A stretch of 64,000 bases of DNA from an uncultured Clostridia bacterium (GTDB lineage Bacteria; Bacillota; Clostridia; UBA1381): contig CANQQZ010000009.1 in NCBI GenBank assembly GCA_947626135.1, positions 32,713 to 96,712 on the forward strand. Reading direction: 5' to 3'. The notes under the pieces were generated by a model. That model saw only the letters and a list, made by a program, of their open reading frames with translations. It had not been told where the DNA came from and searched no databases. Each line of letters starts with the position of its first letter. The first letter of the stretch is position 1. Positions 17,243-57,643 of the stretch are shown piece after piece. The translations under genes were made by a program, and so were the position numbers.

Positions 17243-17419
17243 ATGAATATGCCAAACGACAGCGCAATACTTCTGAGCGTGGTCAACATGAAGCTCAGAG
17301 ATTTTTACGGCAGCCTCGACGCCCTGTGCTCCGACCTGGAATGGGACCGCGCCGAGCTTGAGGACAGGCTCGGGAAAATATCATATACCTACGACGCGGC
17401 TCGCAATCAATTCGTATGA
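17243..17419 (+). CDS. DUF4250 small protein (58 aa), not in the supplied ORF track
   Basis: ATG at 17243, RBS ggagg, translation MNMPNDSAILLSVVNMKLRDFYGSLDALCSDLEWDRAELEDRLGKISYTYDAARNQFV; stop overlaps the next start (ATGA). Confidence 0.85.
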   Translation: MNMPNDSAILLSVVNMKLRDFYGSLDALCSDLEWDRAELEDRLGKISYTYDAARNQFV

Positions 17420-19998
17420 CGGCGGAGGATACGCGCATGAAAAGGATTGCGGCAGGAATTTTAGCGCACGTCGATTCCGGAAAAACCACGCTGTCGGAGG
17501 GGCTTTTGTATACCTCCGGCGCGATACGGCGGCTCGGGCGCGTAGATCATAAGGACGCGTTTCTGGATACGAATTCGATAGAGCGGGAGAAGGGTATAAC
17601 TATATTTTCAAAGCAGGCGGTATTTTCGTATAACAATACCGAAATCACTCTGCTCGACACGCCGGGACACGTCGATTTTTCCGCGGAAACGGAGCGCACT
17701 CTTTCGGTGCTCGATTACGCGGTTCTCGTTATAAGCGGTTCGGAGGGAGTTCAGAGCCATACGGAGACCTTGTGGCAGCTTTTGAGCCGATACGAAATCC
17801 CGACATTTATTTTTGTAAATAAAATGGACATGCCGTCCGCAGACAAGGACGCGCTGATGAAGGATCTGCGCGCTAAGCTCAGCGATTTCTGCGTAGATTT
17901 CACCGACGACAGGTCAAGCGAATTTTATGAAGAGGCGGCGCTGTGCTCGGAGGAGCTTATGGACGAGCTTATGGAAACGGAATCCGTGTCAAAGCAGGCG
18001 TTAACGGACGCCGTCCGCCGCCGCAAAATTTTCCCTTGCATGTTCGGTTCGGCTCTCAGGCTGCACGGCGTGGAGGAATTCCTGTCGGTTTTCACAGAAT
18101 ATGCCGCCGAAGCGGATTTCGGCGAAGAGTTCGGAGCGAAAATTTTTAAAATATCCGAGGATGAAAAGGGGCAGCGGCTCACGCATATGCGTATAACCGG
18201 CGGTTCCCTTAAAATACGGGACGAAATTTCCGACGGAGACCAAACGGAAAAGGTAAATGATATACGCGTATACTCCGGCGCGAAATATAAAAATATAACG
18301 GAGGCTCTGCCGGGAATGGTAGTCGCGGCGGCGGGACTGACAAAAACGCGCGCCGGCGAAGGGCTCGGCTTTGAGCGCGACGCCCGCGGTCTCACCCTTG
18401 AGCCCGTATTTTCCTACCGCGTAAAGATCCCGCGCGGACGCGATATCCCATCCGCGCTCGCCGATTTGAAAAAGCTTGAAGAAGAGGAAACGCAGCTTAA
18501 TGTTTACTGGGACGAAAGGCTGCGCGAGATAAGCATACGCCTTATGGGCGAGGTGCAGCTCGAGGTTCTGAAAACCATAATCGCCGAGCGGTTCGGCATG
18601 GATGTGGAATTTGAAAACGGCAGTATAATTTATCGCGAAACCATCGCCGATACCGTTGAGGGCGTCGGGCATTACGAGCCTCTCAGGCATTATGCCGAGG
18701 TGCATCTTCTGCTCGAGCCGAACGAGCGGGGAAAGGGGCTCGAATTTAAAACCGCGTGCAGCGAGGATTTGCTGAACCGAAGCTGGCAGCGGCTCATATT
18801 GACGCATCTCGCCGAAAAAGCTCATATAGGAGTGCTTACCGGCTCTCCGATTACCGATATAAAAATCACACTCGTTGCCGGGCGCGCTCATGTGAAGCAT
18901 ACCGAGGGCGGAGATTTCAGGCAGGCGACTTACCGAGCGGTTCGCCAGGGGCTTATGCAGGCGCACAGCGTTTTACTGGAGCCGTGGTACGATTTCAGGC
19001 TCACTCTTCCGTCAGCCTCCATCGGACGCGCCATGAATGAAATCCAGCTTATGGGAGGCACGGTGTCGGCGCCTGATACCGTTGACGCCGAGACGTCGGT
19101 AATCGCGGGCAGCGCGCCTATCTCAAAAATGCATAATTACCAAGCCGACGTAACGGCGTACACGCACGGCAAGGGCGTTTTGACCTGCAATTTCGGAGGC
19201 TACCGCGAATGCGTAAACGCGGAGGAGGTTATAGAAAAAATCGGGTATGATTACGAGTCCGATTTGCGCAACAGCCCCGATTCCGTATTCTGTACGCACG
19301 GCGCGGGATATTATGTGCCGTGGTACGATGTGTTCAATCATATGCATCTTGAGCTCGCGGGAACGGCAAAGCCTCAACCCGAGGACGTACCCGTCACTCG
19401 CCGGAGCGAACCGGCGCAAATAAGCGAGGATGAGCTTATACGCATTTTCGAAAGAACATACGGAAAAATAAACAGGGATGTTCCGCAGCGGATGAAAACG
19501 GAAAAAATCGTACCGAAGCAGCCTAAATATAAGACGCGCCCGCGCCCGCAGGGACCGGATTATCTTCTCATAGACGGATACAACATCATCTTCGCGTGGG
19601 ATGATTTGACCGCTGTCGCAAGGGAAAGCCTCGAGGCGGCTCGCGACGCTCTCATAAACCGCATCGCCGGATACGGAGCCATGAAAAAAATCGAGATTAT
19701 ACTTGTTTTCGACGCGTATAAGGTCAAAGGGAACCGCGGCGAGATTGAAAAGGTAAACGGTATAACGATAGTATACACAAAGGAGGCTGAAACAGCCGAC
19801 GCGTATATCGAGCGCGTGACGCATGAATTAAGCCGCCGCCACCGCGTCCGGGTCGCCACCTCCGACAGCCTCGAGCAGCTGATAATCCTGGGGAACGGCG
19901 CTCTGCGCATCAGCGCGCGTGAGTTCCTTGCCGAGGTAGAGGAAACGGAAAGGGAAATCAGGCGCTTTATTGAAGAATACAATTCCCGCGCAGAATAA
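17416..19998 (+). CDS. TetM/EF-G-like ribosomal GTPase fused to a C-terminal YacP/Rae1-type NYN nuclease domain
   Basis: N-term [36 protein letters not shown]-term YLLIDGYNIIFAWDDL...ILVFDAYKVKGNRGE...VVYTKEAETADAYIERVTHEL (NYN_YacP). Confidence 0.88.
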   Translation: MTAEDTRMKRIAAGILAHVDSGKTTLSEGLLYTSGAIRRLGRVDHKDAFLDTNSIEREKGITIFSKQAVFSYNNTEITLLDTPGHVDFSAETERTLSVLDYAVLVISGSEGVQSHTETLWQLLSRYEIPTFIFVNKMDMPSADKDALMKDLRAKLSDFCVDFTDDRSSEFYEEAALCSEELMDELMETESVSKQALTDAVRRRKIFPCMFGSALRLHGVEEFLSVFTEYAAEADFGEEFGAKIFKISEDEKGQRLTHMRITGGSLKIRDEISDGDQTEKVNDIRVYSGAKYKNITEALPGMVVAAAGLTKTRAGEGLGFERDARGLTLEPVFSYRVKIPRGRDIPSALADLKKLEEEETQLNVYWDERLREISIRLMGEVQLEVLKTIIAERFGMDVEFENGSIIYRETIADTVEGVGHYEPLRHYAEVHLLLEPNERGKGLEFKTACSEDLLNRSWQRLILTHLAEKAHIGVLTGSPITDIKITLVAGRAHVKHTEGGDFRQATYRAVRQGLMQAHSVLLEPWYDFRLTLPSASIGRAMNEIQLMGGTVSAPDTVDAETSVIAGSAPISKMHNYQADVTAYTHGKGVLTCNFGGYRECVNAEEVIEKIGYDYESDLRNSPDSVFCTHGAGYYVPWYDVFNHMHLELAGTAKPQPEDVPVTRRSEPAQISEDELIRIFERTYGKINRDVPQRMKTEKIVPKQPKYKTRPRPQGPDYLLIDGYNIIFAWDDLTAVARESLEAARDALINRIAGYGAMKKIEIILVFDAYKVKGNRGEIEKVNGITIVYTKEAETADAYIERVTHELSRRHRVRVATSDSLEQLIILGNGALRISAREFLAEVEETEREIRRFIEEYNSRAE

Positions 19999-20006
19999 GC
20001 GCGTAT

Positions 20007-20038
20007 AAAAAAAGCGACGGAAACATCGCTTTTTTTAT
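20007..20038. terminator. Intrinsic terminator
   Basis: aaaaaaagcgacggaaacatcgcttttttt. Confidence 0.85.
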
Positions 20039-21257: not shown

Positions 21258-22865
21258 ATGATCACGGTAAATAATGTAGGAATGAATTTTGCGGGGCAGC
21301 AGCTCTTTTCCGATGTAAATCTGAAATTCACACCCGGCAACTGCTACGGCGTGATAGGCGCGAACGGCGCGGGCAAATCGACTTTTCTGAAAATCCTGTC
21401 AGGCGAGCTCGAGCCGACAAAGGGCGAGGTTTCCATTGACCCGAATTGCCGAATGTCGGTTTTAAAACAGGATCACTTCGCGTTTGACGAGTACAGTGTG
21501 CTTGACACGATTATCATGGGCAACGAAAAGATGTACTCCATCATGAAGGAAAAAGACGCAATCTATATGAAAGAGGATTTTTCCGACGAGGACGGTATGC
21601 GCGCGGCTGACCTTGAAGGCGAATTTATGGAGATGGGCGGCTATGAGGCGGAAAGCGACGCGTCCAAGCTCATACAGGGGCTCGGTCTTGACGAGAGCGT
21701 TTTATATTCGCAGATGTCATCGCTCGACGGAAACGAAAAGGTAAAGGTCCTGCTTGCACAGGCGCTGTTCGGGAACCCGGATATAATACTTCTCGACGAG
21801 CCGACAAACGGTCTTGATTTGCAGGCGGTTGAATGGCTTGAGGATTTCCTGCTCGATTACGAGGGCACGGTCATAGTCGTATCGCATGACAGATATTTCC
21901 TCAATATAGTATGTACAAATATAGTCGATATCGACTATACGAAAATAAAAATGTACGTCGGAAACTATGAGTTCTGGTACGAGTCCTCACAGCTGGTGCA
22001 GAAAATGATAAAGCAGCAGAACAAGCGCGCGGAGGAAAAAATAAAGGAGCTTCAGGCGTTTATCCAGCGCTTCTCGGCGAACAAGTCAAAATCAAAGCAG
22101 GCGACCAGCCGTAAAAAGATGCTCGACAAGCTGACGGTTGAGGAAATGCCGGCGTCATCGCGGCGGTACCCGTTCGTGGGATTCGATATGGACAGAGAGG
22201 CCGGACGCGATTTGCTTACCGTGACCGGCGTATCAAAAACCGTTGACGGCGTTAAGGTGCTCGATAATATATCATTCTCTCTCAATCACGGCGACAAGAT
22301 AGCTGTGATCGGCGATAACGAAATAGCCGTCACGGCGCTTCTGGAAATACTCGCGCTCGAATCGGAGCCCGACGAGGGGTCTGTAAAATGGGGCGTGAGC
22401 ACGTCGAGGAGCTATTTCCCCAAGGATAATACAAAATATTTCGAGGGCTGCACGCTCAATCTCATGGATTGGCTGAGACAGTACAGCAAGGCCGGCTTTG
22501 AAACGCAGAACGAGACGTATATACGCGGATTCCTCGGGCGTATGCTGTTCTCGGGCGACGACGTGTTTAAACCCGTCAATGTGCTTTCCGGCGGCGAGAG
22601 GGTAAGATGTATGCTCTCGCGCATGATGCTGTTCGGCTCAAACGTGCTGCTTCTCGACCAGCCGACAAACCACCTCGACCTTGAGTCTATCACAGCCGTA
22701 AATAACGGACTTACCGCATTTAAAGGCAACGTCATATTCGCATCGCACGACCATGAATTTATTCAAACCATCGCCAACAGGATTATTGATATAAAATCCG
22801 ACGGCTCTGTCGTTGACAGAATGTGTACCTATGACGAATATATTGAAATGACACGGGAGAAATAA
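21258..22865 (+). CDS. ABC-F family ATP-binding protein, degenerate second ATP site
   Basis: GANGAGKSTFLKIL...LLDEPTNGLDLQAVEWLEDFL; second domain GDNEIAVTALLEIL and LLLDQPTNHLDLESI. Confidence 0.92.
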   Translation: MITVNNVGMNFAGQQLFSDVNLKFTPGNCYGVIGANGAGKSTFLKILSGELEPTKGEVSIDPNCRMSVLKQDHFAFDEYSVLDTIIMGNEKMYSIMKEKDAIYMKEDFSDEDGMRAADLEGEFMEMGGYEAESDASKLIQGLGLDESVLYSQMSSLDGNEKVKVLLAQALFGNPDIILLDEPTNGLDLQAVEWLEDFLLDYEGTVIVVSHDRYFLNIVCTNIVDIDYTKIKMYVGNYEFWYESSQLVQKMIKQQNKRAEEKIKELQAFIQRFSANKSKSKQATSRKKMLDKLTVEEMPASSRRYPFVGFDMDREAGRDLLTVTGVSKTVDGVKVLDNISFSLNHGDKIAVIGDNEIAVTALLEILALESEPDEGSVKWGVSTSRSYFPKDNTKYFEGCTLNLMDWLRQYSKAGFETQNETYIRGFLGRMLFSGDDVFKPVNVLSGGERVRCMLSRMMLFGSNVLLLDQPTNHLDLESITAVNNGLTAFKGNVIFASHDHEFIQTIANRIIDIKSDGSVVDRMCTYDEYIEMTREK

Positions 22866-54197: not shown

Positions 54198-55400
54198 TTA
54201 TTCCTCAATCGCGGTGACAACGCCCGAACCAACTGTTCTGCCGCCCTCACGGATAGCGAAACGAAGACCAACCTCGATAGCTATCGGTGTAATGAGCTCA
54301 ACATTCATCGTTACGTTATCGCCGGGCATGCACATCTCTGTACCCTCGGGAAGGCTGATTATACCTGTAACATCTGTTGTTCTGAAATAGAACTGGGGTC
54401 TGTAGTTGTTGAAGAACGGCGTATGACGTCCGCCCTCTTCCTTTGTCAGAACATAAACCTCGCCGGTAAACTTGGTGTGCGGGTGAATTGTTCCGGGAGC
54501 CGCAAGTACCTGACCGCGCTCAATTTCGTTTCTCTGAACACCGCGGAGAAGCGCGCCGATATTGTCGCCTGCCTCAGCGTAATCGAGAAGCTTTCTGAAC
54601 ATTTCGATACCGGTAACTACGACCTTTCTCTTCTCCTCTGTAAGACCAACGATTTCAACCTCCTCGTTGAGCTTTAACTGACCTCTCTCAACACGGCCCG
54701 TAGCAACGGTACCGCGGCCTGTGATCGAGAAGATATCCTCGATAGGCATAAGGAACGGCTGGTCAGCCTTTCTCTCCGGAGTCGGGATATAGGTGTCAAC
54801 AGCATTCATAAGCTCCCAAATGCACTTGTACTCGGGCGCATCCGGATCTGTGGATGTTGACTCGAGAACGCCGAGCGCCGTACCTATGATAATCGGAATA
54901 TCGTCGCCGGGGAACTCATATTCGCTGAGGAGCTCTCTAACCTCCATCTCAACAAGCTCAAGGAGCTCGGGATCGTCAACCTGGTCGCTCTTGTTCAGGA
55001 ATACTACGATATAGGGAACGCCAACCTGACGCGAAAGAAGGATGTGCTCTCTCGTCTGGGGCATCGGACCGTCAGCAGCCGATACAACGAGGATAGCGCC
55101 GTCCATCTGCGCGGCACCGGTAATCATGTTCTTAACGTAGTCAGCGTGTCCCGGGCAGTCAACGTGAGCATAGTGACGTGAATCAGTCTCGTACTCAACG
55201 TGAGCGGTAGAAATTGTGATTCCTCTTTCTCTCTCCTCGGGAGCCTTATCGATCTGGTCATAAGCCTCAAACTGAGCCTGACCCTTCAGAGCCAAAACCT
55301 TTGTTATAGCCGCTGTAAGAGTGGTCTTGCCGTGGTCAACGTGACCGATGGTACCGATGTTAACATGCGGTTTGGTTCTTTCAAATTTAGCCTTTGCCAT
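54198..55400 (-). CDS. tuf: Elongation factor Tu
   Basis: [27 protein letters not shown]. Confidence 0.99.
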
Positions 55401-55531
55401 TGTAATAATTCCTCCTTAAATTAATCTATTACATTAATAAATTCATTGTACAATCTTTTAATGAAAAAATCAAGTGTTTTTTCATATTTACGGCAATTTA
55501 TTCGGTATTTTTCCCCTTTTGCCGTTAATTA

Positions 55532-57643
55532 TCAGTCATTTTTAGCTCGTTCGCTGATAATTTTCTCCTGAATCGACTTGGGTACCTCGCTGTAATGCGA
55601 CGGCTCCATAGTGTACTGTCCGCGTCCCTGAGTGCCGGAACGAAGAATCGTCGCATAACCGAACATCTCGGAAAGCGGAACCTCCGCCGTAACCTGCGTA
55701 ACACCGCCGGAACGAACCTCCTGGCTCTTTATCATGCCGCGTCTTGAAGAAAGGTCTCCGATAACGAAACCCAGATAATCATCCGGAGCTATTACGTTAA
55801 CGAGCATGATAGGCTCCTTCAGCACGGGATCGGACTTCTTCATGCCCTCCTTGAATGCCATAGAAGCGGCGATCTTGAACGCCATTTCCGAAGAGTCGAC
55901 CTCATGGTACGAACCATCATAGAGCGTAGCCTTCAGGTCAACAACGTTGTATCCGGCGAGCACGCCGTTAAGCATAGCGCCCTGAATACCGGCGTCTACA
56001 GCCGGGATATATTCCTTCGGAATAGCTCCTCCGACAACCGCATTTTCAAATACGTAGCCTTCTCCCTCTGCGAGCGGCTCAAACTTGATGAATACGTGTC
56101 CGTACTGTCCTTTACCGCCGGACTGACGCGCATACTTGTGCTCGATATTGACGGGCTTTCTGAACGCCTCTCTGTAGGATACCTGCGGCGTTCCGACATT
56201 TGCCTCGACCTTGAACTCTCTTAACAGTCTGTCAACGATAATTTCAAGATGAAGCTCGCCCATGCCGGCGATAATCGTCTGTCCGGTCTCCTCGTCCGTA
56301 TACGTTTTAAATGTCGGGTCTTCCTCGGCAAGCTTCGACAAAGCGATACCCATCTTTTCCTGACCCGCCTTAGTCTTAGGCTCTATCGCAACACGGATAA
56401 CCGGCTCGGGGAAGTCCATCGACTCCAGTATGATCGGATGCTTTTCATCGCAGAGCGTTTCGCCTGTCGTTGTGTTGGACAGACCTACAGCCGCCGCGAT
56501 ATCTCCCGAATATATGATATCCAGATCCTCTCTGTGGTTTGCGTGCATTTGCAGGATACGTCCCATTCTCTCGCGTTTTCCCTTGCAGGAATTGAGCACG
56601 TAGGAGCCCTTTTCAAGCACACCGGAATATACGCGGAAATAGCAGATTTTACCTACAAACGGGTCTGTCGCAATCTTGAATGCGAGCGCCGCGAACGGAG
56701 CGTCGTCAGACGAGGGTCTCTCATCCTCCTCATCCGTCTCCGGATTGATACCCTTGATATTGGGAACGTCCGTCGGAGCGGGCATATACTCTATAATCGC
56801 GTCAAGAAGCATCTGCACGCCCTTGTTTCTGTACGCTGTTCCGCAAAGCATGGGAACAATTTCGTTATTAATCGTAGCCTTGCGGAGAGCCAGCTTAAGC
56901 TCTTCAACGCTGATTTCCTCATCGCTGAGGAACTTTTCAAGCAGCGCCTCGTCCGTTTCGCAAATGGCTTCCACCATCTGCTGATGGTACTCCTCAGCCT
57001 GCTCCAGCATATCCTCCGGAATCGCTTCCTTGTGATACTTCTCTCCCAGCTCGTCCTCGTAGATCTCAGCATCCATGTTCATAAGGTCGATGATGCCCAC
57101 AAAGCTGTCCTCGGCGCCTATCGGAAGCTGAATCGGAACGCCGTTCGCCTGAAGTCTCTCGTGGACCATGTTTACAACGTTATAAAAATCCGCGCCCATG
57201 ATATCCATTTTATTAACGAAAATCATACGCGGTACGCTGTAGTCGTCAGCCTGACGCCAAACGGTCTCAGACTGCGGTTCAACGCCGCCCTTGGCGCACA
57301 TAACCGTTACAGAACCGTCCAGAACTCTCAGCGAGCGCTGAACCTCAACGGTAAAGTCAACGTGTCCCGGTGTATCTATTATATTTATTCTGTGCTTAAC
57401 GCCGCCATACGGTCCTTCCTTCGGCTCCCAGAAGCATGTTGTGGCAGCGGACGTAATTGTAATTCCGCGCTCCTGCTCCTGCGCCATCCAGTCCATCGTA
57501 GCCGCACCGTCATGCGTTTCGCCTATTTTATGATTGATACCGGTGTAGTACAAAATTCTCTCGGTCGTAGTGGTCTTTCCGGCGTCAATATGCGCCATGA
57601 TACCGATATTTCTTGTATGTTCGAGTGAATATTGTCTTGCCAA
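55532..57643 (-). CDS. fusA: Elongation factor G
   Basis: [35 protein letters not shown]. Confidence 0.99.

Follow-up and report, generated by a model that had tools for sequence, protein, structure and literature searches.

What is the role of a protein in which a TetM/EF-G-like GTPase and a Rae1/YacP-type nuclease are joined in one chain? A gene for such a protein lies in the window, the 64,000-nucleotide stretch of an uncultured Clostridia genome that was analyzed here, and an earlier note on this DNA had suggested that its product could serve in A-site mRNA surveillance or rescue rather than in tetracycline resistance. Tet proteins of ten Clostridiales species have been described as having acquired a YacP-like NYN domain, and a resistance mechanism based on the RNase was suggested (Atkinson 2015, PMC4342817). 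Judged by architecture (a Tet-subfamily GTPase with a C-terminal YacP-like NYN domain, in Clostridiales), the window protein is a further member of this known, uncharacterized architecture; an experimental study of the fusion's function was not found in the literature searched. To the ten species of the 2015 study we add the breadth of the distribution, the mutual exclusion of fused and standalone YacP, a family-specific domain-IV tip, the loss of a tail from the fused nuclease, and the unfused forms, including genomes that carry the GTPase only.

The longest open reading frame (17416-19998, + strand) comprises 860 codons with no internal stops. The 860-aa frame of the earlier note is therefore intact, but its start probably lies elsewhere. 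Because GGAGG (at about 17424-17428) is found 8-9 bases upstream of a second methionine codon, ATG 17437, because most homologs begin at this second methionine, and because ATG 17416 overlaps the stop codon of the preceding DUF4250 gene (ATGA), the fusion probably starts at ATG 17437, giving a coding sequence of 853 aa (17437..19998, +).

Within the 860-codon frame, Pfam recognized five EF-G-type domains followed by the nuclease, all on the + strand, so that the proposed joining of a TetM/EF-G-like GTPase and NYN_YacP in one chain was borne out. The G domain (aa 11-230, 17446..18105; GTP_EFTU, 2.5e-50) has motifs that are near-invariant in the family and intact in the window protein. It is followed by domain II (aa 240-316, 18133..18363; EF-G_D2, 1.1e-9), domain III (aa 329-400, 18400..18615; EFG_III, 1.3e-6), domain IV (aa 403-516, 18622..18963; EFG_IV, 5.9e-20) and domain V (aa 519-600, 18970..19215; EFG_C, 4.4e-16). 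A C-terminal extension with the pattern DSVFCxHGAGxxVxWxxVxxxMH (aa 601-648, 19216..19359) is common to the fused and unfused members of the family. The linker of about 66 residues (aa 649-714, 19360..19557) is mostly of low confidence or disordered, except for one conserved helix (aa 671-682) bearing the motif ELxxIFExTYG, which takes a variant form in distant fusions. The Rae1-type nuclease domain occupies aa 715-859 (19558..19992), with the NYN_YacP model (PF05991) matching aa 717-857 at 1.5e-49 and 168.6 bits, against a gathering score of 24.6. Sequence matches in the PDB divided in the same way: TetO (8.7e-76) and TetM (5.4e-74) matched the N-terminal part, and B. subtilis YacP (5mq8/5mq9, 3e-27) the C-terminal part. 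An AlphaFold2 model built with 40 related sequences (mean pLDDT of 79.8, pTM of 0.61) predicted a folded GTPase and a folded NYN domain, with pLDDT below 50 at residues 650-670 and 686-707; the best fold matches of this model in the PDB were EF-G structures.

The catalytic residues of the nuclease, which the earlier note had singled out for an alignment, have been retained: no substitution was found in 87/87 fused or 11/11 standalone sequences at D720, N723, D766, T788, D795 or D817. The domain can be aligned with residues 2-144 of B. subtilis Rae1/YacP, the conserved acidic positions included. Unlike Rae1, the window nuclease is joined to a GTPase, and it has no arginine-ended C-terminal tail of the kind found in standalone YacP proteins. 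Among standalone YacP proteins, 9 of 11 end strictly in the pattern L(E/Q)xxR and the other two in close variants of it; the pattern was found in 2 of 87 fused proteins, the fusions near the window protein being tailless and the distant ones carrying an altered remnant. In B. subtilis, the R166P substitution in Rae1 is an efp suppressor of the same class as rae1 frameshifts (PMC6613710), and residue 166 falls outside the region in common with the window protein. The tail of free Rae1 may thus serve ribosome docking or function, a task that the GTPase would take over in the fusion; missing or altered tails in fused nucleases are what recruitment by the GTPase in place of the tail would predict.

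We next consider how widespread the fusion is. NYN_YacP was present in 249 of the 391 Clostridia genomes sampled, and the fusion-type GTPase in 168 of them, almost always as a single copy; in a wider sample of the phylum, 22 of 300 genomes contained this GTPase. Frames with an NYN domain fell mainly into two length classes, of about 170-216 aa and of 840-960 aa. Exclusion was counted in the 148 genomes among the matches listed, which were the best 150, strongest first, and not the whole set. Sixty-three of these genomes had a standalone YacP, 79 had a fused one, and 7 had a frame between these two lengths that a contig end has probably truncated. Fused and standalone YacP excluded each other in 147 of the 148 listed genomes, the exception (G330) having both. 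Second NYN matches in three genomes (G136, G201 and G242) were rejected as real copies, since they were 21-bit partial matches below the cut-off. Standalone yacP mostly lies within the order cysS-mrnC-(thyX)-rlmB-yacP-sigH (genes named by eye from their sequences). In the host, rlmB is not followed by yacP, and a search for a separate yacP in the assembly, which is 84% complete, returned the fused copy only. Given the near-exclusion of the two forms, the fusion seems to stand in for Rae1 in its host; gut Clostridia commonly carry it, apparently as the only Rae1 they have. One fused gene (L083), which branches among Clostridia, lies on a contig of 1.49 Mb whose title is Alistipes sp. (Bacteroidota); this probably reflects a mislabeled genome, or else a transfer.

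Our preferred reading, held tentatively and at a little short of an even chance, is that of a chromosomal Clostridia translation factor whose TetM/EF-G-like GTPase would deliver a Rae1-type endoribonuclease to ribosomes. Surveillance or rescue of mRNA at the A site seems its most plausible task. A more specific version, which we put forward with greater reserve, is a GTP-gated no-go-decay factor, in which the GTPase would check the A site and hand it to the tethered endonuclease, and which would replace free Rae1 across much of Clostridia. The GTP-bound GTPase would enter a paused ribosome with a free A site, placing its KHTEGG domain-IV tip at the decoding center; upon GTP hydrolysis it would move out, the tethered NYN domain would cut the mRNA at the vacated A site, and the truncated message would pass to rescue by tmRNA or RqcH. 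Since domain IV and the NYN domain cannot share the A site, the model needs sequential binding. We infer that the protein binds ribosomes, that it cuts in the A site, that GTP gates the cut and that the message is handed over. In B. subtilis, the defect caused by losing EF-P is suppressed when rae1 is lost (PMC6613710), hence Rae1 acts at paused ribosomes, and the host carries tmRNA and an NFACT/RqcH-type gene as candidates for the rescue step. The intact and conserved halves of the fusion, their low dN/dS, the near-exclusion of fused and standalone YacP, the separate YacP that accompanies most unfused GTPases and the altered tails also speak for this reading; genomes with the GTPase or YacP alone speak against it. 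If the GTPase gates the nuclease, this would explain how nucleases of the Rae1 type are directed to the appropriate ribosomes, and bacteria would possess a GTPase-delivered, mRNA-cutting rescue factor. A similar purpose, rescue at stalled ribosomes, may be proposed for SmrB of E. coli and MutS2 of B. subtilis, which PMC10897456 describes as recruited to collided ribosomes, SmrB cleaving mRNA and MutS2 reportedly splitting ribosomes without mRNA cleavage. The likeness would be one of function and not of descent; unlike the fusion, these proteins have SMR domains and no translational GTPase.

The alternative that survives best, although we consider it unlikely, is that the two halves are only loosely connected in function, one being a ribosome GTPase (such as a back-translocase or an EF-G-like helper) and the other an RNase mainly for rRNA or tRNA precursors, with the fusion tying together only their localization or expression. 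Each half indeed occurs without the other in some genomes. An unfused GTPase of about 640-700 aa, ending where the linker would begin, was found in 20 genomes, and a separate YacP accompanies it in 14 of these. In the other six (G029, G062, G183, G207, G334 and G078) the GTPase occurs with no NYN match, and it must therefore have a use of its own; conversely, 46 of the listed genomes contain YacP but no such GTPase, so the nuclease does not need it. A role of NYN domains in rRNA and tRNA maturation has also been proposed, as cited by Atkinson 2015 (PMC4342817). However, mRNA under translation is the reported target of Rae1, the closest characterized relative of the NYN domain (PMC6613710, PMC10100781), and both the conserved helix of the linker and the missing tail point to adaptation of the protein to its fused state. 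As to a single origin of the fusion, unfused GTPases form one clade in the GTPase tree, which is compatible with one change, by fusion or by splitting, between fused and unfused states, although long outgroup branches leave the root unsure and prevent safe rooting. The NYN tree weakly rejects a single fused clade (AU p of 0.026), possibly due to later splits; in two genomes (G243 and G262) the separate NYN clusters with fused ones, as if a fusion had later split and both parts had been retained.

More doubtful is antibiotic protection, the proposal of Atkinson, by which the GTPase would clear tetracycline or some other drug that targets ribosomes, helped by the RNase, which could for instance cut RNA on ribosomes stalled by the drug. 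TetO and TetM are the nearest characterized relatives, with the same five-domain GTPase layout and about 29-30% identity over aa 4-600. The fusion nevertheless scored far below the curated cut-offs: 417 of 775 bits for the Tet model (NCBIfam tet_protect), 289 of 1100 bits for TetM/W and, for EF-G, 288.6 of 659.4 bits. It also has a C-terminal extension of its own, and its GTPase family stands apart from Tet M/O/S in the tree (99% SH-aLRT). The domain-IV tip (aa 490-502, 18883..18921, +) reads RAHVKHTEGGDFR in the window protein, in the place of the Tet-type loop III, which is YYSPVSTPADFR in Tet(M), Tet(O) and Tet(S) and is absent here; the tip of S. aureus EF-G was also compared. The form KHTxGGDFR is invariant or nearly so in fusions and is kept in fused and unfused members alike, and it therefore marks the GTPase family and not the fusion. 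On the other side, the loop has the same length as in Tet, and Tet(M) with the substitutions S508A/P509A/V510A is reported to be still active (PMC4750697). Because this mutant with three altered tip residues was reported active, drug protection keeps some likelihood. The distribution is chromosomal and core-like, with a single copy in nearly all of the 168 genomes and no matches on ordinary plasmids. Together, the missed cut-offs, the different tip and the chromosomal single-copy gene favor a role of the GTPase other than tetracycline protection, as the earlier note had suggested, short of proving it. In metagenome surveys, such genes should not be read as tetracycline resistance.

A mobile resistance gene was rejected. 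Matches of the family in the plasmid collection were confined to two records that are probably chromosomal: one of 518 kb from Monoglobus, which contains spore-coat genes and in which the protein is named a "translation factor GTPase family protein," and one of 760 kb from Limosilactobacillus. In Limosilactobacillus fermentum (L088, 4700-7000), the member is unfused and has a deviating tip, GSIVHTVGGDFR, and the gene is frameshifted in that record. Each of four genomes (G605, G249, G412 and G614) contained an additional GTPase match that was more remote, about 660 aa long and with an E value in the range of about 1e-124 to 1e-138, and that ended near model position 594; these are perhaps true tetracycline-protection proteins.

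It is improbable that the GTPase does the work and the NYN domain is little more than a passenger. Genomes with the GTPase only would fit such a view, but the catalytic residues are invariant in all 87 fused sequences, and in the closest pair no part is under stronger constraint than the NYN domain. Between the window protein and its nearest relative (L008, 85% identical), the NYN domain had a dN/dS of 0.033, compared with 0.071 in the GTPase and 0.175 in the linker, values that are rough since synonymous sites are saturated. The fusion is under purifying selection. A sequencing or assembly error that joined two genes has a negligible chance, despite the fragmented host assembly (50 contigs): of at least 585 related stretches returned when species genomes were scanned, the 80 that were kept are independent loci, some from isolate genomes, and each is an intact single open reading frame of 839-908 aa ending in the NYN domain, which disposes of the frameshift that the earlier note had named as a possible objection.

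The surroundings of the gene vary. A DUF4250 gene of 58 aa (17243..17419, +; PF14056, 1.2e-24) is located directly upstream, but a conserved operon was rejected since the pairing recurs in the closest relative only, and we regard DUF4250 as context. No neighbor of the fusion gene is conserved across relatives, and with no PADLOC match either, a defense system was rejected. Downstream of the stop codon, a terminator-like hairpin, AAAAAAAGCGA-CGGAAACA-TCGCTTTTTTT (20007..20036, +), was read by eye from the sequence; it is absent from the list of a consensus terminator scan. An ABC-F-like ATPase with two ABC_tran stretches and ABC_tran_Xtn is encoded nearby (21258-22865, +). The efp suppressors of B. 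subtilis include both rae1 and the ABC-F gene ydiF (PMC6613710); the nearness of the two genes here is probably due to chance. The window also contains an EF-G of 708 aa and an EF-Tu-like frame of 405 aa (about 54970-57610, -), and given this separate EF-G, the fusion is not the EF-G of the host.
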